DNA of 32,314 nt, taken from contig MGTI01000008.1 in the NCBI GenBank assembly GCA_001799365.1, positions 1 to 32,314 of the forward strand. The letters are read 5' to 3'. The DNA is from Desulfobacterales bacterium GWB2_56_26 (GTDB taxonomy: Bacteria; Desulfobacterota; Desulfobulbia; Desulfobulbales; Desulfocapsaceae). The first letter of the stretch is position 1. Each line of letters opens with the position of its first letter. The notes beneath the pieces were generated by a model, which made no database searches, was not told where the DNA came from, and was given only the letters and a program-made list of their open reading frames with translations. Below are positions 10,401-21,918 of the stretch, one piece after another. The position numbers and the translations under genes were made by a program.

Positions 10401-10619
10401 GGGTGATCTCCCGAAGGTTTCGTGTATTTCAGTTATGATATGCCGTCAGTAGGATTCAACTCGAAAAATTATGGGAATGAACAAAAAAGAATAGCCAATT
10501 GATCGAGATTTGTCCCTGTTTTCGGTAGCTGTCCTTCAGCTTTTCTTTCTATAGGCATCGAGTTAATGCATATAATACGAGTAGCGGGAAAAAGATTATC
10601 AACCAAAACCGGATTAATT

Positions 10620-11717
10620 ATGTCATCACTCACCGACCTCACGCCCTTCATCGCCGATATCCAGCATAACTGCGATATCTCCGATGCCCGGGATCACGGC
10701 ATCTATTCGATGTGTACCATGGTGCTGAAACTTCGCAACCTCTACAAATGGGAAAAGAACCTGCAGCCGTGGGAAGAGCCGGAAGCGGCCGACCTCCTCG
10801 ACTGGATCGACGGCAAAGAGAATTATTGGGCCACCATTGCCGGGGAGCCGTTTCGCTCTCTTGCGGCTGGCGGGAAGCGGCTTGAGCCGCTGGAGCTCGA
10901 AGAGATCAACGGGGCGCTGCAGGACGAGACGCTGCTCTATGGCGCAGGCTTTGGGCGGTCGATGAAGGCGGTTTTTTTTCTCGCCGAAAAGCTCGAAGAG
11001 CGCCGGGCGGAAGGCTGCCCGGTTTTAATCCTAGGCCGGGAGCGGGCAAGGGAGATGGCCAGCCCTTTTGCCATGGTTCAGGACGGCCTGATCATCATCC
11101 GCCGGGAGTCGCTTCGCTTCTTCTTATGGGACCAGATTCAGGAGGTGCGCTCCTCCTGCCGGAAATCATTGCAATACGCGCTGCAGTACTACGGTGTATT
11201 CCGGGACGGGAGCCTTGATCGGGAGCTGCTGCGGGCGAAACTGGATACCATGGTCGAAGAAGAGATGGATCTGTTCATCGCGCATGAAGTCGGAGAAATT
11301 CTGCAAACCACCTTGAAGTCCGAGACTCTGCAGACAGTTATTGGCCATTTTCCTGGCACCGTGATCGAATTTGTCGGCCGGTCGATCAAGGATATCCTGG
11401 CCGATACCCATCCGCAGGGGCTCCTTGCCTATCTTGTCAGGGAGCAGCGGGATGCCTCACTCGGCTTTTATCTCACCTTCCTCGACGGTCTTCGCAGCAA
11501 GCTTTTTCCGGAGATCATCGAGGCCTGGCAGCAGTTTGTTGCCGATCGGGACTGGCGTCGCATCGAGCAGGCGCGACGCACCTGCTGGGCGCGCAACAGC
11601 CGGATTGCAGGGCAGATCGAGGAAATTGCCGAAACGATCGGTCACGATCCGGACGAAAGAGTCATGGGCCGCTTCAACCGCGAGATTCTTGAACCCCTGG
11701 GCCTGGCGACGCCCTGA
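10620..11717 (+). CDS. Conserved hypothetical protein (possibly the Sfum_1244 family)
   Basis: This gene encodes 365 residues from ATG 10620; an upstream in-frame ATG at 10566 is less likely because a TATAAT at 10571-10576 falls just after it and could be the -10 element. No signal peptide or membrane segment is seen, so the protein is cytoplasmic. The N-terminus reads IQHNCDISDARDHGIYSMC and then LRNLYKWEKNLQPWEEP. A largely helical middle contains an FIAHEVGE block (about residue 220) that looks like an HExxH-type variant, but I do not claim catalysis. It resembles proteins I recall annotated as Sfum_1244 family in deltaproteobacteria, function unknown. The gene is divergent from yceH and convergent with the glutamine amidotransferase gene. 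Confidence 0.8.
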   Translation: MSSLTDLTPFIADIQHNCDISDARDHGIYSMCTMVLKLRNLYKWEKNLQPWEEPEAADLLDWIDGKENYWATIAGEPFRSLAAGGKRLEPLELEEINGALQDETLLYGAGFGRSMKAVFFLAEKLEERRAEGCPVLILGRERAREMASPFAMVQDGLIIIRRESLRFFLWDQIQEVRSSCRKSLQYALQYYGVFRDGSLDRELLRAKLDTMVEEEMDLFIAHEVGEILQTTLKSETLQTVIGHFPGTVIEFVGRSIKDILADTHPQGLLAYLVREQRDASLGFYLTFLDGLRSKLFPEIIEAWQQFVADRDWRRIEQARRTCWARNSRIAGQIEEIAETIGHDPDERVMGRFNREILEPLGLATP

Positions 11718-12539: not shown

Positions 12540-12678
12540 TCTCTCTCTATGAAAAGGTGAAGATGGTCCATTCTTTCGGGGAGAGAGGTGACAAAAAGAT
12601 GGATGTTGACCAATAGTTGCGGTAGATACAAAACATTGCCCCGCAAGAACCTGGATCAATCAACGCGACCGCCGGATT

Positions 12679-15600
12679 ATGCCGATTCTCAACACCTGCC
12701 GGGAATTCCTGGACCAGTGTCTGCTGTTTGACATCGAAGTAGGCGAAAATAAACGCATCTACTCCATCGGCGCATCGTTTTGCGGCAAATCGTTCCTGAT
12801 CCCGCCAGGCAAATCGATCGGTCCGCGGCAGCTTGACGAGTTCGAGGCTTTCGGCGCGGCGGCCTCCTTCATCCTCGGCCACAATGTCCTGGCCCACGAT
12901 ATCCCGAGGTTGTGGGAGATCGCCCCGTCCCTTGCCATCCTGGAGAAGCCGGCCGTCGATACCCTCTACCTCTCGCCTCTCGCCTTTCCGGCCAATCCCT
13001 ACCATAAACTGGTCAAGAACTACCGGATCGTCCGGGACAGCGTCAACGATCCGGTCCAGGATGCCCTGCTGGCCGGACGGGTCTTTGAAGAACAATGGCA
13101 GGCCTTCGCCGAGCAGCTGACGGCGGGGGCCGATGGGCCGCTGCTGTATCGGGCGTTGCTGCACCGGGACGAGGGGTTCGCCGGGACCGCCGAGGCCCTG
13201 GCGGCCATGGGTATTCCTTTGTTGCCGGATGACGATCTTGTTGAGGCCTTTGCCTGGCTGGCCAGAAAGAAGAGCTGTCTGTCGGCGGTGGACCGTATCG
13301 TCGAGCAGCTGCAGGACGGCACGCTTGATCCTGCCCCTCTCGCCTATGTCGCCGCCTGGCTGACGGTCGCCGGCAGCAATTCGGTCCTGCCGCCCTGGGT
13401 GCGGCATCGCTTTCCCCAGGTGCCGGTCATTCTCCACCAGCTGCGGGATAGCCCCTGCGAAAGTCCGCACTGCGCCTACTGCCGGGAGCACCACGAGCCG
13501 CTCACCGTGCTGCGGAAGTACTACGGTTTTGAGGCCTTCCGGCCGGAGCCGGCGACGGCTGCGGGTGACAGCCTGCAGGAGGCGATCGTTTCCGCCGCGG
13601 CCAGGGACGCCACGCTCTTTGCCACTTTGCCCACCGGCGGCGGCAAGTCGCTCTGCTATCTGCTCCCCGCCCTGATGCGCTACCAGCGGCGCAATCTGCT
13701 GACCATCGTCGTCTCGCCGCTCCAGGCCCTGATGAAGGATCAGGTGGATAATTTCTCCCGGCAGACCGGCACCCGGATGGCCGCCGCCCTGTCCGGGATG
13801 CTCACCCTGCCGGAACGGGGCGAGGTGCTGGAGGCGGTGCGGCTGGGCGATGTCGGCATGCTCTACATCTCGCCCGAGCAGCTCCGCAACCGCAGCTTTG
13901 CCGTAACCGTCAGCCAGCGGGAGATCGGCGCCTGGGTGTTCGACGAGGCGCACTGCCTCTCCAAGTGGGGTCATGACTTTCGGCCGGATTACCTCTATGC
14001 GATCCGTTTCATCCGCGAATTCGCCAGGAAGGAAAAGACCGCCATCCCGCCGGTGCAGTGCTTTACAGCCACCGCCAAGCAGGACGTGACCTCGGAAATC
14101 GTCGACATCGTCGAGAGCGAGCTCGGCCTGCGGATGGTCAAATTTGCCGGCGGCCATGAGCGCAGCAATCTGCACTACGAGGTCTGGCCGGTGGAGGCGC
14201 GCGAGAAGTATCCGACGATTCTGGGACTCCTCAAGGCCCGCTACCGCAGCGGCAGTGCCGTCATCTACTGCGCCAAGAGGAAACAGACCGAGAGGTTGGC
14301 CGAATTCCTGCAGCAGGAGGGTTATCAGGCCGAAGCCTTCCATGCCGGTCTTGAACCGTCTCTGAAGAAGCGCATCCAGGAAAATTTCATCGACGGAACC
14401 ACGCCCGTCATCTGTGCCACCAACGCCTTCGGCATGGGCATCGACAAGGACGATGTCCGCCTCGTCATCCATGCCGACATTCCGGGGTCGCTGGAAAACT
14501 ATCTGCAGGAAGCCGGCCGGGCAGGGCGGGACCGCGACGAGGCCGAGTGCATTCTGATCTTCACCGAGCAGGATATCGAAAGCCAGTTCCGCTTGAGTGC
14601 CAGCTCACGGCTCAGCCAACGGGAAATCGCCCAGCTGCTGCGCGGCATCCGTTTTGCCGCCCGAAGCGGTGAGGAGGGGGTGCTAACCGCAGGCGAATTG
14701 CTGCGGCTCGAGGTGGTCGATATCGATCCGCAGCAGCTGGCGGACGGCGACACCCGGGTGCGGACCGCCGTCTCGTGGCTCGAACGGGCGGGGTATCTGC
14801 AGCGCAACGAAAACGAAACAAGGATCTTCCAGGGCAAGCCGCGGGTCAGGAGCCTTACGGAGGCGGAAACAAAGATCGACGAGCTGAACCTTTCGGCGCG
14901 GCAGCGGGCGCGGTGGCTTTCGATCCTTGCCGCCATGATGGAGAAAAGGCCAGGCAACAAGGGCTTCAGCGCCGACGAACTGGCCAGCCTTCCATCCTTT
15001 GCCAAGGCGGAAGGGGAAGAAGATTCGGAGACGGAGCGGGTTCTCCGCACCCTCCACGACATGGCCGAGCAAGGCCTGCTCACCAAGGAAACCATCCTTT
15101 CCGCCTATGTGCGGCACAAGGTGCAGAACAGCGCCGAAAGGCATCTTACTCGGGTGACGGCGCTGGAGCGGGATTTCCTCAAGGTGCTGGAAGAGGCGGC
15201 TCCGGACCTGGCCTTAGAGGCCCCGGCCGAACTCGATCTCCGCCAGCTCAATCAGCTGCTGCTCGACCGGGGGCACGACTCTACCACGCCCCACAGCCTG
15301 AGACTTATCCTCTACGGCCTGTCCCGGGACGGCAAGGGGCTGGCCGGACAGCGGGGCAGCATCACCGTCCGGGCGACCGGCAACAACAGGTTCAATCTGC
15401 TGTTGCACCGCGACTGGGAATCGCTGGTCAAGACCGTCCGCGTGCGGCAACAGGCCGCGGCCGTCGCGCTGCAGGTTATTATCGGCAGGATTCCGGCGGA
15501 AGCGGGTGCGAGTGCCAGTCTCTTGGTCGAGTTCACCCTGGAGGCGATCGTCGAGGGGCTGAAGGGCGACCTGCTCCTCTTTCCCTTGCTGAAGGATCCG

Positions 15601-17841
15601 CTGGCCGCCGCCGAACGGGCGCTGACCTTCATGCACGAGCAGGGGGTCATCGATCTCCAGCAGGGCCTCGCCGTCTTTCGCCAGGCCATGACCCTGCGGC
15701 TGAGTCCTGCAGCGAAAGCCCGACGCTACTCCCAGGCCGATTTCGCTCCGCTCGACACCCATTACACCGAGCGCAACTTCCAAATCCATGTGATGAACGA
15801 ATACGCCCGCCGGGCCCTCGACAAGCTCAGCGCGGCCATGGGCCTGGTCGCCTCCTACTTCAACGACGATAAGGAGGATTTCATCCGTCGCTTCTTTGCC
15901 GGACGGACCAGAATGTTGAAACGGGCCACCAGCGAACAATCCTTCCAGCGGATCGTCGACGACCTGAAAAACGATAGCCAGGAACGGATCGTCGGCGAAA
16001 GCCCCGAGCAGAACATGCTGATCCTGGCCGGGCCGGGGGCAGGCAAGACCCGGGTGGTCGCCCACCGGGTGGCCTTTCTGCTGCGGGTGAAACGGGTCAA
16101 GCCGCAGGCGATTCTGGTACTCTCTTTCAACCGCAGCGCGGTTCTCGGCTTGCGCCGGAGGCTGCGGGAGCTGGTCGGCGAAGAGATGAACGGCGTCACC
16201 ACCCTCACCTTCCATGGTCTCGCCCTGCGTCTCGCCGGCAGATCGCTGGTCACCTCGGCTGGTTTACGAAACGGCGATGCGGACTTTGCCGGGGTGATCC
16301 GGGAGGCGGTGGCCCTCTTGAAAGGGGAAAAGGAGGTGCTGGGGCTGGGCGAGATGCCTGTGCGGGATGTTCTGATCGGCAGGTTCAGTCACATCCTGGT
16401 CGACGAATACCAGGACATCGACGGCGAGCAGTACGAGCTGGTCGCCCTGCTCGCAGGCAAGCAGCTCGAAGAAGTCGACCGGAAGCTGACGATCCTCGCG
16501 GTGGGCGACGACGACCAGAACATCTACCGATTTCGCGGGGCAAGCGTCGAGTTTATCAGGAGATTTTCTGCCGACTATGAGGCGGCTACCCATTATCTCA
16601 TCGAAAACTACCGGTCCACCGGCCATATCATCGCCGCTGCCAACTGCCTGATCGCCCATAACACCGAAAGGATGAAGACCGGCCACCCGATCCGGATAAA
16701 CGAGGCACGACGCGGGTTGGCGCCCGGCGGCAACTGGCAGAGCAGGGATCCGGTGGCGGGCGGTAAAGTGCAACGGCTGATAGTCGCCGATCGGGACGAC
16801 CAGGCCCTGGTCCTCCTGGAGGAGATTCAGCGGCTGCGGCGGCTGGAGAGCAGCTTCGACCTCGACAGCTGCGCGGTGCTGGCCCGGGAATGGAAGGATC
16901 TCGACCGGGTCAGGGCGGCCTTCGAGACGGCGGGGATACCGATCAGCTTCAGCTGGGGGCGGAGCGATTCATTTCCGCGGCTGACAAGGGTCCGGGAAAA
17001 TGCGGTGCTGCTCGAATATCTGCTGGAAAACCGGTTGGCGATGCTGACCGCCGGCTCGCTTTTTGCCTTCCTGCCGAAGAAGGCGGCAGACGATTCGCCC
17101 TGGCAGGCCAATCTGCGGCGGCTGCTCGAAGATTTCCGTGACGAAACGGGGGACATCCCGCAGCAGGTTCCGGCGATCGAGGAATATCTCTACGAGGCGC
17201 TCGCCGATCAGGGCCGGGCGAAAAATATCGGCAGCGGCCTCTTTCTATCCACCGTCCATTCCGTCAAGGGGCTGGAGTTCGATCATGTCTTCATGCTGGG
17301 CGACAGCTGGCAGGCGAAAGAGGGTCAGGAAGGGGAGGAAGAGCGGCGGCTGTTCTATGTCGGTATGTCGAGGGCACGGCAGACCCTTGCACTCTTCAGC
17401 CTGGAGAATACCGGAAATCCCCACGCAGTACTGCTGGACGGCGACTTCCAGGTGGTGCGGCGGCTCCGCCCGGCGCAACGGCATCAGCCGGTCGACCGGC
17501 GGTACGCCCTTCTTGGTCTTGAGGATATGTTTCTCGATTTTGCCGGGATGAGGAAGGAAAACCATCCCGCTCGGCAGGCCCTGGCAGGACTTGCAGCAGG
17601 GGATGTCCTGACGGCGGAGATCCGAGGCGAGCACATCGAACTGATCGACGCCCGCGGCGTTGCCGTCGCCCGCCTGTCCAGGGCCGCGCGGGAAAAATGG
17701 GCGGGACGGCTGGGGAAGATCGGGACAATCCGGATCGTCGCCATCATTCGCCGGTATCGCGGCGATATCGCTGAAAAGGAGTACGGCGACCGGTGTTACG
17801 GCAATGTCTGGGAAGTGCCTGTCGTTGAGATGGTATGGTGA
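12679..17841 (+). CDS. Giant DEDD exonuclease - RecQ helicase - UvrD/Rep helicase fusion protein
   Basis: This gene encodes 1720 residues. ATG 12679 is the only usable start after the in-frame stop at 12607, although the ribosome binding site is weak. Domains in order: (1) DEDD 3'-5' exonuclease, about 10-140, with D18/E20, D74 in the GHNVLAHD block and D128 in DPVQDALL; (2) a cysteine cluster, C260, C265 and C268 with nearby His 264, 271 and 272; (3) SF2 RecQ core with LPTGGGKS (about 317-324), DEAH 422-425 and QEAGRAGRDR (610 on); (4) winged-helix-like region, about 655-735; (5) helical linker; (6) SF1A UvrD/Rep helicase with AGPGAGKT (1117-1124), VDEYQD (1241-1246), GDDDQNIYRFRG (about 1276) and TVHSVKGLEF (1525-1534). 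All motor motifs look intact. It probably unwinds and trims DNA during repair or recombination. Confidence 0.95.
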   Translation: MPILNTCREFLDQCLLFDIEVGENKRIYSIGASFCGKSFLIPPGKSIGPRQLDEFEAFGAAASFILGHNVLAHDIPRLWEIAPSLAILEKPAVDTLYLSPLAFPANPYHKLVKNYRIVRDSVNDPVQDALLAGRVFEEQWQAFAEQLTAGADGPLLYRALLHRDEGFAGTAEALAAMGIPLLPDDDLVEAFAWLARKKSCLSAVDRIVEQLQDGTLDPAPLAYVAAWLTVAGSNSVLPPWVRHRFPQVPVILHQLRDSPCESPHCAYCREHHEPLTVLRKYYGFEAFRPEPATAAGDSLQEAIVSAAARDATLFATLPTGGGKSLCYLLPALMRYQRRNLLTIVVSPLQALMKDQVDNFSRQTGTRMAAALSGMLTLPERGEVLEAVRLGDVGMLYISPEQLRNRSFAVTVSQREIGAWVFDEAHCLSKWGHDFRPDYLYAIRFIREFARKEKTAIPPVQCFTATAKQDVTSEIVDIVESELGLRMVKFAGGHERSNLHYEVWPVEAREKYPTILGLLKARYRSGSAVIYCAKRKQTERLAEFLQQEGYQAEAFHAGLEPSLKKRIQENFIDGTTPVICATNAFGMGIDKDDVRLVIHADIPGSLENYLQEAGRAGRDRDEAECILIFTEQDIESQFRLSASSRLSQREIAQLLRGIRFAARSGEEGVLTAGELLRLEVVDIDPQQLADGDTRVRTAVSWLERAGYLQRNENETRIFQGKPRVRSLTEAETKIDELNLSARQRARWLSILAAMMEKRPGNKGFSADELASLPSFAKAEGEEDSETERVLRTLHDMAEQGLLTKETILSAYVRHKVQNSAERHLTRVTALERDFLKVLEEAAPDLALEAPAELDLRQLNQLLLDRGHDSTTPHSLRLILYGLSRDGKGLAGQRGSITVRATGNNRFNLLLHRDWESLVKTVRVRQQAAAVALQVIIGRIPAEAGASASLLVEFTLEAIVEGLKGDLLLFPLLKDPLAAAERALTFMHEQGVIDLQQGLAVFRQAMTLRLSPAAKARRYSQADFAPLDTHYTERNFQIHVMNEYARRALDKLSAAMGLVASYFNDDKEDFIRRFFAGRTRMLKRATSEQSFQRIVDDLKNDSQERIVGESPEQNMLILAGPGAGKTRVVAHRVAFLLRVKRVKPQAILVLSFNRSAVLGLRRRLRELVGEEMNGVTTLTFHGLALRLAGRSLVTSAGLRNGDADFAGVIREAVALLKGEKEVLGLGEMPVRDVLIGRFSHILVDEYQDIDGEQYELVALLAGKQLEEVDRKLTILAVGDDDQNIYRFRGASVEFIRRFSADYEAATHYLIENYRSTGHIIAAANCLIAHNTERMKTGHPIRINEARRGLAPGGNWQSRDPVAGGKVQRLIVADRDDQALVLLEEIQRLRRLESSFDLDSCAVLAREWKDLDRVRAAFETAGIPISFSWGRSDSFPRLTRVRENAVLLEYLLENRLAMLTAGSLFAFLPKKAADDSPWQANLRRLLEDFRDETGDIPQQVPAIEEYLYEALADQGRAKNIGSGLFLSTVHSVKGLEFDHVFMLGDSWQAKEGQEGEEERRLFYVGMSRARQTLALFSLENTGNPHAVLLDGDFQVVRRLRPAQRHQPVDRRYALLGLEDMFLDFAGMRKENHPARQALAGLAAGDVLTAEIRGEHIELIDARGVAVARLSRAAREKWAGRLGKIGTIRIVAIIRRYRGDIAEKEYGDRCYGNVWEVPVVEMVW

Positions 17842-17856
17842 AGCAGCTTCCTGCCG

Positions 17857-18339: not shown

Positions 18340-18386
18340 AAGATTGCCCGCCCCGTTTGCTAAGCGCTCATCTTCAATGGGCTTTC

Positions 18387-18442
18387 GTAGGGTGCACTCT
18401 GTGCACCATCTCTATTACATTGGTGCACAGAGTGCATCCTAC
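18387..18442. repeat. Inverted REP doublet (REPIN/BIME-like)
   Basis: The left arm (18387-18408) and right arm (18421-18442) are 22-nt inverted copies with one mismatch. Each starts, read inward, with a GTAG head. The left arm contains the small hairpin GGTGCAC-TCT-GTGCACC; the right arm has the same hairpin except for the one mismatch. A GTAG head plus a short palindrome, twice in opposite orientation, is the design of RAYT-mobilised REP elements. The TAG of the right head is the stop codon of the lipoprotein gene. A related doublet lies at 28808-28901. Confidence 0.8.
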
Positions 18443-18954
18443 TTCAGGAGACCGCTCACCTTGTCGAGTGCCCGTCGGTTCAGGGTCTGGGCACAGTAGG
18501 TGCCGCCCTTGCTTGAGCCGACTCCGTCCCGCCACTCGGACAGAAGGGCGCCGTTCTCATCGAGCAGCTTGTGGCTGAGATCAAGAGACGCGGCCCCCGC
18601 ACCGAAACCGACAAAGGCCCTCGCGGCCCGGTTGCCGGCATTAAAGCGCTCGACCTCGATCACCAGCAGTTTTCCCATGTTCGGTTTATAGCCCTGCATC
18701 TCCTTGATCAGCACCGGTTCAAAACCGGCCTGTCTCATGATCTTGATAATATCGCGGTCCATCCACTGCATCACCATGTCCAGTTCCCTTGCCTGGTCGG
18801 CGGTTTGACCGGCAAGATCGCCGTCCAGGGTGAGCACGGCAATTTTTGTCCCGACCTGCGGCTTGACTTCAGCCTGCTTTGTGCCGTTTTTACCACAGCC
18901 GCCGGTCAGGCCGACCAGCAGAACGAGGGAAAGTATCAGGGTGAGGTGTTTCAT
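18439..18954 (-). CDS. Putative lipoprotein (DUF4410-like)
   Basis: This gene encodes 171 residues. ATG 18954 has AAGGAGC upstream at normal spacing. The N-terminus is a lipoprotein signal with the lipobox LTGGC (Cys about residue 19). The C-terminal half reads VERFNAGNRAARAFVGFGAGAASL followed by a LLDENGALLSEW strand; the Gly/Ala-rich FGAGAA segment resembles DUF4410 lipoproteins, but I am not certain. The role is unknown. The stop codon TAG is the core of the GTAG head of a REP doublet, so the present C-terminus may have been set by insertion of that element. It diverges from the peptidase gene at 19132. Confidence 0.8.
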   Translation of the reverse strand: MKHLTLILSLVLLVGLTGGCGKNGTKQAEVKPQVGTKIAVLTLDGDLAGQTADQARELDMVMQWMDRDIIKIMRQAGFEPVLIKEMQGYKPNMGKLLVIEVERFNAGNRAARAFVGFGAGAASLDLSHKLLDENGALLSEWRDGVGSSKGGTYCAQTLNRRALDKVSGLLK

Positions 18955-20887: not shown

Positions 20888-21415
20888 TCAAGGGTTGTCA
20901 ACGGCAAATCTTCCTGGCACCGATCCTCTTGCTTTCGATAATCGGTCGACCTCTTTGAGCAGGGTCGGCATCCGATAGCTGCCGTGCATCGACGCTATCA
21001 ACTCCCCGGCATCTTCGGGTTTGATGCCGCAGGCTGTGATAAATAAAGGATTCTTGCTCCTTCCACGTTTAACTTCCACGGGATTGCTTCCCGCGAAATA
21101 TTTCTTGGCCACCCCAATTATCGGAATGGCCGAATTGAGCGATTTACTGAGATGCTTGCCGAGGCCGGGACGATCTCCCAGAAAAACGTAGCCGTCAACT
21201 ATGATAATATCAATGATCTCGTTGATCTCGGAGAAGAGTTCCAGGATGCAGGGCAGCTCTCGTTTGTAAAAAGAACCCGGCACATATTCTTCGACGTGGA
21301 CAATCCTTTTCCGATAGCTGCGTCGAGGTTTGGCATCGAAGAAATGCTCGAACACCACTGCAGCGGCCTGGGCGCTCCCGTCATCCGGATAGCCGACATC
21401 GAATGCTGCAATCAT
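20888..21415 (-). CDS. Endonuclease V family protein (divergent, lacking a conserved His)
   Basis: This gene encodes 175 residues from ATG 21415. A TTG at 21442 overlaps the upstream TGA (TTGA) and could be a coupled start that adds nine residues. The core of endonuclease V is present: D6 in AFDVGY, the YVPGSFYKRELP block with Y44 and E53, D74 in VDGYVFLG, IGVAKK, and the C-terminal NPLFITACG followed by YRMPTLLKEVDRLS. Aligned by eye to E. coli Nfi, D35, Y80, E89 and D110 correspond, but the GH containing H214 is GI here. It is shorter than the usual 220 residues, missing the N-terminal helices. If active it would nick DNA (or RNA) beside deoxyinosine or inosine. Confidence 0.8.
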   Translation of the reverse strand: MIAAFDVGYPDDGSAQAAAVVFEHFFDAKPRRSYRKRIVHVEEYVPGSFYKRELPCILELFSEINEIIDIIIVDGYVFLGDRPGLGKHLSKSLNSAIPIIGVAKKYFAGSNPVEVKRGRSKNPLFITACGIKPEDAGELIASMHGSYRMPTLLKEVDRLSKARGSVPGRFAVDNP

Positions 21416-21438
21416 GGGCAATAAAGAAGAGCGTGAGA

Positions 21439-21918
21439 TCAAAAAACATAGGCGAGGATGAAGATTCCCACCATGGAAAAGGCAAGCATCAGCTTGGCCG
21501 CGATGCCCAGAACGAAACCGATCCAGGTGCCCACGCCCACTCGGCCGGCCATTCCCAGGTTACGGCCTACGAGCAGCTCGCCGATCACTGCGCCGATAAA
21601 GGGTCCGAAAAAGATGCCCACGAAGCCGAAGAAGATGCCGACGACAGCGCCGAGAGCAGCTCCAATCACCGCCTCACGGCTGGCGCCTATCCGTTTGGCG
21701 CCGAGGCTGCCAGCGACGAAATCGGTCGCAAAGGCGACAATCGTCAGAATCGCCAGCACGATCATCGTCACGACGCTCACGTTCTGAAAGTTATCGGCCC
21801 AGGCGGTCAGCAGCAATCCGGCAAAAATCAATGGGGTCCCCGGGAGTCCGGGAATAAGAATGCCGGCAATGCCGACTCCGACTAAAAGCAGGCTTGCTAC
21901 CCACAGTAAAGGTGTCAT
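21439..21918 (-). CDS. DUF456 family membrane protein
   Basis: This gene encodes 159 residues and is almost entirely hydrophobic, with four to five transmembrane segments. It opens with an LLVGVGIAGILIPGLPGTPLIF block, in which GxxxPxLPGxPL is the DUF456 signature, and continues with glycine-rich helices (GAALGAVVGIFFG, GPFIGAVIGEL). Function is unknown; it sits in the inner membrane. The stop codon overlaps a possible TTG start of the endonuclease V-like gene by two bases, so the two may be co-translated. Confidence 0.9.
   Translation of the reverse strand: MTPLLWVASLLLVGVGIAGILIPGLPGTPLIFAGLLLTAWADNFQNVSVVTMIVLAILTIVAFATDFVAGSLGAKRIGASREAVIGAALGAVVGIFFGFVGIFFGPFIGAVIGELLVGRNLGMAGRVGVGTWIGFVLGIAAKLMLAFSMVGIFILAYVF

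Follow-up and report, generated by a model that had tools for sequence, protein, structure and literature searches.

A patchily distributed bacterial gene family that joins a TREX-like DEDD exonuclease domain to RecQ-type and UvrD-type motors in one putative DNA-processing protein

RecQ and UvrD/Rep motors both belong to families of 3'-5' translocases. A first-pass annotation of the window, by which we mean the entire 32,314-nucleotide stretch of DNA analyzed here (from a host assembly of 4.5 Mb in 263 contigs), proposed that one of its genes joins both motors to a 3'-5' exonuclease. This raises the question of whether such a polypeptide truly exists and, if so, what it might do. The open reading frame at 12679-17841 on the plus strand begins with ATG, is free of internal stops and encodes 1720 residues. 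We divided it and its immediate upstream region as follows, with the basis of each assignment in brackets.

12593-12678, plus strand: upstream stretch homologous to the copy on contig C68 of the nearest relative, genome G003, and perhaps a promoter (comparison with the nearest relative)
12679-17841, plus strand: whole gene, a fusion of exonuclease, RecQ, middle, UvrD and C-terminal parts, 1720 residues (open reading frame, domain and family alignment)
12706-13122, plus strand: DEDD exonuclease domain, residues 10-148, with D18, E20, H68-N69, D74, D94-T95-L96 and N123-D-P-x-x-D128 (conservation, hhalign, model, fold match)
13126-13503, plus strand: all-helical linker, residues 150-275, with invariant C200 (conservation, model)
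13456-13494, plus strand: C260-x4-C265-x2-C268-x3-H272, a candidate zinc site just ahead of the RecQ core (conservation)
13504-14598, plus strand: RecQ helicase core, residues 276-640, with K323, DEAH at 422-425, GMG at 585-587 and QEAGRAGR (Pfam, NCBIfam, conservation, tree)
14599-15948, plus strand: middle region, residues 641-1090, without the RQC zinc motif and perhaps winged-helix-like (motif count, hhalign, model, fold matches)
15961-17412, plus strand: UvrD/Rep-type SF1A motor with shortened inserts, residues 1095-1578, with Q1101, K1123, DEYQD at 1242-1246, GDDDQ, NYRS, KGLE and RR..YV..SRA (Pfam, conservation, tree, spacing)
17446-17838, plus strand: C-terminal domain, residues 1590-1720, with LGL..LFLDYAG ... 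GD.L ... VARLS ... WEVP.VE (pattern; also covered by the match to a stand-alone Sphaerotilus helicase)

A Pfam scan, as the first-pass annotation had suggested, recovered both motors of the window protein, namely DEAD at residues 299-470 (1.2e-23) with Helicase_C at 511-618 (4.1e-21), and UvrD-helicase from 1098 (1.1e-40) with UvrD_C to 1572 (9.7e-25), and missed the exonuclease. The protein exceeded the NCBIfam recQ_fam model TIGR00614 (284.7 bits against a cut-off of 219.8), and, within the 25 NCBIfam rows listed out of 53, it fell below the equivalog cut-offs for RecQ, UvrD, PcrA and Rep. Several database records name the fusion 'RecQ family ATP-dependent DNA helicase', and because that name is generic the family is easily overlooked.

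Our search of a genome collection retained the best 80 of at least 584 relatives, and within these the closest named loci carry the label Desulfobulbaceae. The loci from the collection and from relatives of the window genome held 89 open-reading-frame hits of at least 900 residues; after removal of the copy in the window itself, of hits that failed to cover residues 30-1690 and of copies resembling one another across residues 100-400, 69 remained, giving 70 full-length, non-redundant rows together with the window protein. Each of these rows, the window included, is read in one frame and carries both Walker lysines. The same domain order recurs in Proteobacteria, Desulfobacterota, Verrucomicrobiota, Bacteroidota, Cyanobacteria, Deinococcota and Campylobacterota. 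Plasmid records yielded six further members beyond the 70-row set, and the distant ones (Cyanobacteria, Bacteroidota, Deinococcota and Campylobacterota) likewise hold the three parts in one coding sequence. Homologues that are always split, the pattern by which the first-pass annotation would have recognized a joining artefact, were looked for and not found, although a few copies are broken. The 70 single-frame rows and six plasmid members thus establish one real polypeptide with a DEDD nuclease domain and two motors of 3'-5' families, as originally proposed, and the residues singled out for mutation (D18, K323 and K1123) were correctly placed, each being kept in 70 of 70 rows. Taken together, these results confirm one intact gene that encodes an exonuclease domain and two motors in one chain, and no artefact.

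The phylogeny that the annotation had called for set both motors apart from their canonical counterparts. In a RecQ-core tree, 73 fusion rows were split from 9 canonical RecQs by a 100/100 branch, and in a UvrD-core tree the same 73 rows stood apart from 8 canonical UvrD/PcrA sequences at 100/100; the outgroups were drawn solely from relatives of the window genome (9 of 10 RecQ and 8 of 10 UvrD stretches passed a motif filter, the rest being dropped), the bootstrap of the RecQ tree was unsettled, and long branches were seen for L091, L119 and L120 and, in the UvrD tree, for Sphaerotilus. Pairwise distances correlated between parts, with r values of 0.904 for RecQ and UvrD, 0.745 for exonuclease and RecQ, and 0.637 for the lowest pair, exonuclease and C-terminal domain. 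These values fit co-inheritance of the parts, and the trees agree with one old fusion. Every part displayed dN/dS below 1 in 8 of 8 pairs (0.062-0.225 for the exonuclease, with a maximum of 0.4 in the C-terminal domain), dS being near saturation in several pairs and one linker value being undefined. A stand-alone helicase of 684 residues encoded on a Sphaerotilus plasmid (L121:6788-8842) matches residues 1083-1719, that is, the UvrD motor and C-terminal half, and nests among the fusion rows in the UvrD tree (support of 97/86 for its grouping with the copies from Allochromatium and Cereibacter). Its position inside the fusion rows suggests that it is a fusion which lost its front half. Two individual loci deserve mention. 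The copy on a contig labelled Puia sp. (L013) sits firmly among Desulfobulbaceae and Desulfofustis copies, perhaps owing to a binning error. At L097 (G237:C50:14793-15680) a 365-residue open frame carries the exonuclease profile, and the same genome has a 1726-residue frame with that profile.

We asked which kind of nuclease the N-terminal domain resembles. Pfam RNase_T matched 1 of 67 family members (E 0.002). In hhalign comparisons the domain aligned with four RNase_T/DEDDh sequences over residues 13-137, approximately, at a probability of 97% (E 9.4e-11), compared to 23.8% (E 8.5e-4) for 12 RNase_H_2 sequences and 0.3% for 14 PolA/RNase D-type sequences; the templates were motif-selected open reading frames (4 of 6 RNase_T, 14 of 14 PolA-type and 12 of 12 RNase_H_2), a selection that forces a His into the RNase_T set. 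A sequence profile run against the PDB gave weak rows only, the top one being fortuitous and lying outside the domain (E 0.021) and the second the 'exodeoxyribonuclease III' entries 9mrc/9mrd (E 0.13). An AlphaFold2 model of residues 1-300 had a mean pLDDT of 93.0, with a weak loop at 111-120. Its top Foldseek match in the PDB was the TREX1 homologue Plex9.1 (probability 1.00, E 1.7e-3), followed in the ranking by Pol II, S. aureus DinG (rank 11), Cap18 and TREX1; no PDB match reached E 0.001, and 5 matches from the viral library passed it. Judged by title, the 50 matches listed are either DEDD exonucleases or polymerases with such a domain, and DEDDy enzymes occur among them. Since the DEDDy members Rrp6 (rank 6) and EXD2 (rank 40) are among them, the fold alone cannot separate DEDDh from DEDDy. 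A WRN-type (DEDDy) exonuclease is instead ruled out by the 0.3% hhalign result together with the lack of a Tyr in place: the site expected to hold the DEDDy Tyr, four residues ahead of the final Asp, has D in 51, N in 17, H in 1 and K in 1 of the 70 rows. The likeness to WRN drawn in the first-pass annotation therefore does not extend to the nuclease, and we describe the domain as TREX/RNase_T-like rather than WRN-like.

The annotation had also regarded all catalytic motifs as intact. The four acidic residues (D18, E20, D74 and D128) and the Walker lysines are indeed kept in 70 of 70 rows. However, the position of the DEDDh general-base His, five residues before the last Asp and equated with N123 through the hhalign alignment, is N in 55, S in 13 and A in 2 of the 70 rows, so that the claim was too strong. 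By eye, N also occupies this position in the Deinococcus, Allochromatium, Cereibacter, Bacteroides, Nostoc and Aliarcobacter members. Given that Asn, Ser or Ala stands in for the His, the nuclease may cut slowly, rely on a different base or lack activity altogether. If the domain were degenerate, it would bind metal and the 3' end without cutting, and the protein would act as a double translocase with a 3'-end clamp. Replacement of the His throughout the 70 rows and in the six plasmid members speaks for such a clamp, but complete retention of the four acidic residues and the low dN/dS of the exonuclease seem to exceed what pure binding would need, and we regard this account as doubtful.

Between the nuclease and the first motor, C260, C265 and C268 of the candidate zinc site are each present in 70 of 70 rows and H272 in 64 of 70; judged by eye, the site is absent from the Deinococcus, Nostoc and Aliarcobacter members. 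The following core has what defines the RecQ family, the window protein combining the TIGR00614 match with a DEAH motif (D, E and H in 70 of 70 rows, A in 69 of 70) and the HC.S.WGHDFR loop after it, which is conserved across the fusion rows. The middle region was examined for an RQC domain, and none was found: the RQC zinc motif follows the core in 0 of 70 fusion rows versus 9 of 9 canonical RecQs, and hhalign against 8 of the 9 canonical RecQ tails gave 2.9%, a weak test given so few templates. Sequence profiles of the middle region and of the C-terminus found no PDB match at E≤1. A model of residues 640-1112 (pLDDT 85.1, pTM 0.61) returned poor fold matches (best E 0.042), in which the winged-helix proteins RPC62, ROQ and Cdt1 were mixed with unrelated folds. 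As the region matches nothing well, we suggest from this model that it is perhaps winged-helix-like.

The second motor of the window protein displays all of the SF1A motifs Q, I, II, III, IV, V and VI. Motifs I and II are 125 residues apart compared to 196-197 in 8 canonical UvrD/PcrA proteins, and motifs IV and V are 215 apart compared to 258-263; judged by this spacing, the window protein falls short of full-size 1B and 2B inserts. In the C-terminal domain, none of the columns is invariant across 40 rows. Its pattern suggested a HIRAN domain, an identity that hhalign did not bear out (probability 2.0%, three templates).

We next consider where the gene occurs. A full-length copy is present in 12 of 57 relatives, one of them with an internal TGA, and several others hold pieces; decayed or broken copies were found in G017, G020 and G044. 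Within the genus, 7 of 15 genomes carry the gene (two of the non-carriers are less than 90% complete), and in a sample of the phylum the exonuclease profile matched 5 of 297 genomes, the window's own included, 2 of these 5 being partial or bearing stops. The gene is thus patchy rather than core. Canonical RecQ exceeded its cut-off in 2 of the 12 full-length carriers compared to 18 of the 45 other relatives, and all 15 genomes in the genus lacked one above it. In contrast, it was present in 8 of 12 chosen named carrier genomes and in pieces in a ninth (at least one of these 12, L014/G035, shares its matches with one of the 57 relatives), which rules out a general replacement of RecQ. A replacement of RecBCD is likewise ruled out by the presence of RecC in 51 of the 57 relatives. 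Because the fusion coexists with canonical RecQ and with RecC, it fills no evident gap.

What, then, might the protein do? We propose, with a probability of roughly 0.55, that it is an ATP-driven accessory enzyme of genome maintenance, a single chain performing work like that of RecQ, UvrD and an exonuclease. The architecture, its conservation, the exonuclease fold and the shared descent of the motors are what we observed, and from these we infer the activities, substrate and pathway. The middle region, together with the helical and zinc linker, may hold branched or gapped DNA; one motor would separate the strands, the other would draw in the same strand or strip off bound protein, and the DEDD domain would trim or grip the freed 3' end. 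The fusion would in this way unite what E. coli has separately, namely RecQ, UvrD (helicase II) and an enzyme like exonuclease I that digests DNA 3'-5'. One source (PMC2806897) ties RecQ, helicase II and helicase IV together in the RecF pathway of E. coli, against which exonuclease I (sbcB) works, and another (PMC12525004) describes DinG of B. subtilis as a DEDD exonuclease fused to a helicase and tied to replication stress. It is on account of this literature and the anatomy of the protein that we favor accessory repair or fork processing. Motif residues that are invariant or almost so in all three parts across the 70 rows, low dN/dS, co-descended motors and a TREX/DinG-like DEDD fold count for a role in genome maintenance; the absent general base, the patchy gene and the lack of an evident gap count against it.

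Patchy presence (7 of 15 genomes in the genus, 5 of 297 in the phylum) means that a role in conflict fits as well. We place second to genome maintenance, as rather unlikely, a single-gene defence that would unwind DNA from ends or nicks and trim 3' ends, degrading or blocking phage or plasmid DNA. In the nearest relative, G003, the window flanks adjoin on contig C72 (L181) without the fusion, the last aligned points being 115 nt apart, and a 78%-identical copy lies elsewhere, on C68, homology being confined to window positions 12593-17842. Since the start of PuuD in the C72 flank looks diverged or shortened, it is possible, from this single comparison, that the C72 site arose by deletion of the fusion gene. 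The defence reading also draws on the 16 plasmid records in which one place covers at least 80% of the query, on a type I restriction-modification operon downstream of one plasmid copy and a BrnT toxin gene downstream of another, and on HipA (2) and PIN (3) matches among 140 near genes. Yet the neighbours surveyed give no support to the defence setting raised by the first-pass annotation. Across 81 loci, many with short flanks, just one neighbour cluster recurs beyond 3 loci, a loose grouping seen in 13 at scattered distances, which includes the response regulator of the window. Near genes are mixed and many are metabolic, and no Pfam family occurs in more than 3 among the 140 of 236 eligible genes scanned (the first in file order, from L053-L090 and L011-L021). 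Matches to PADLOC (25 of 89 rows listed) each had their best stretch confined to a single motor, either RecQ or UvrD, and therefore reflect general helicase likeness.

In the window itself the neighbours encode DUF6866, peptidase C26, response-regulator, DUF4410 and M24 proteins, the protein at 10566-11717 carrying both DUF6866 halves. The minus strand encodes an Endonuclease V-like protein at 20888-21442, some 3 kb away from the fusion gene. About 60 nt at 18383-18444 match many genomic sites across the genus, on either strand, and resemble a REP-type palindrome. No transposon ends or SOS-like boxes were recognized at the fusion gene, the upstream search having applied a few fixed patterns to 66 stretches. 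By eye, a GATATTGACCA..TGCGGTA-like stretch was seen upstream of the gene, at about 12600-12640, ahead of the window region 12770-12810; it is partly common to the window, L019, L041 and L012, and absent from L021.

We consider it improbable that the protein is a helper for the replication and upkeep of plasmids or other mobile elements. Copies do reside on plasmids of eight genera (Thiothrix, Cereibacter, Allochromatium, Rhizobium, Nostoc, Aliarcobacter, Deinococcus and Bacteroides), and the copies from Aliarcobacter, Deinococcus and Bacteroides have, no more than 8 kb away, genes for ParA/ParB, a replication initiator, or ParA and SSB. On the other side, the titles of the 80 genome-collection loci, judged as titles alone, name no plasmid, the near genes are of the mixed, often metabolic kind described above, and among 50,697 phage records there were 23 matches, none spanning 80% of the query, the 20 listed covering the RecQ part only. 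Finally, the notion that a frameshift or assembly error joined two or three genes, to which only the few decayed or broken copies lend any color, has a negligible chance of being correct and is already refuted by the 70 full-length single-frame rows and the co-inheritance of the parts.

No published description of such a fusion was found in the literature searched, which left subscription papers mostly outside and is hence no proof that none exists; PMC5512222 describes UvrD within giant plasmid proteins, a different arrangement. 'Self-contained unwinding and trimming machine', the wording of the first-pass annotation, is a fair name for what is, on sequence grounds, a putative activity. More speculatively, and with a low probability, the family could be a lone-gene, spreading processor of DNA ends, in which tandem motors of the same polarity on one strand would pass the 3' end on to a DEDD nuclease whose chemistry is unusual (H-x4-D being replaced, for the most part, by N-[DN]-P-x-x-D), as an alternative to multi-gene repair or defence nucleases. 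That two helicase superfamilies and a nuclease domain stay fused across distant phyla argues for coupling of RecQ-, UvrD- and exonuclease-type work on one substrate. Cooperation or competition between RecQ, UvrD and a 3' exonuclease is an old question that becomes testable with a single protein, and a nuclease domain with four acidic residues but without the usual general base offers a clean test of DEDD chemistry.

How does the fusion compare to known systems? WRN, a eukaryotic RecQ, has an N-terminal exonuclease followed by RecQ. The fusion similarly places a DEDD-superfamily exonuclease before its RecQ core, and that core (residues 271-641) matches WRN chains in the PDB. In contrast to WRN, its exonuclease is RNase_T/TREX-like rather than PolA/DEDDy-like, the RQC zinc motif is absent and a whole UvrD-type motor is added. 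With bacterial RecQ (TIGR01389) the fusion has the SF2 core motifs in common, but the window protein scores 335.8 bits against a cut-off of 640.2, has no RQC zinc motif and falls in a separate clade. RqlH, of a RecQ-like clade, may resemble the fusion in having a RecQ-like core without RQC and HRDC. UvrD, PcrA and Rep have the SF1A motifs in common with the fusion, whereas the window protein has shorter inserts, belongs to a separate clade and lies far below their equivalog cut-offs. RecBCD and AddAB also combine nuclease and helicase in one machine; unlike these, the fusion has no RecB/AddB nuclease or RecC part among its Pfam matches, and both of its motors belong to 3'-5' families, while the host genome has a RecC gene at another place. 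The DinG proteins of B. subtilis and S. aureus resemble the fusion in bearing an N-terminal DEDD exonuclease on a helicase, but the helicase is of the DinG/XPD type according to PMC12525004, whereas the fusion joins its exonuclease to RecQ and UvrD motors.
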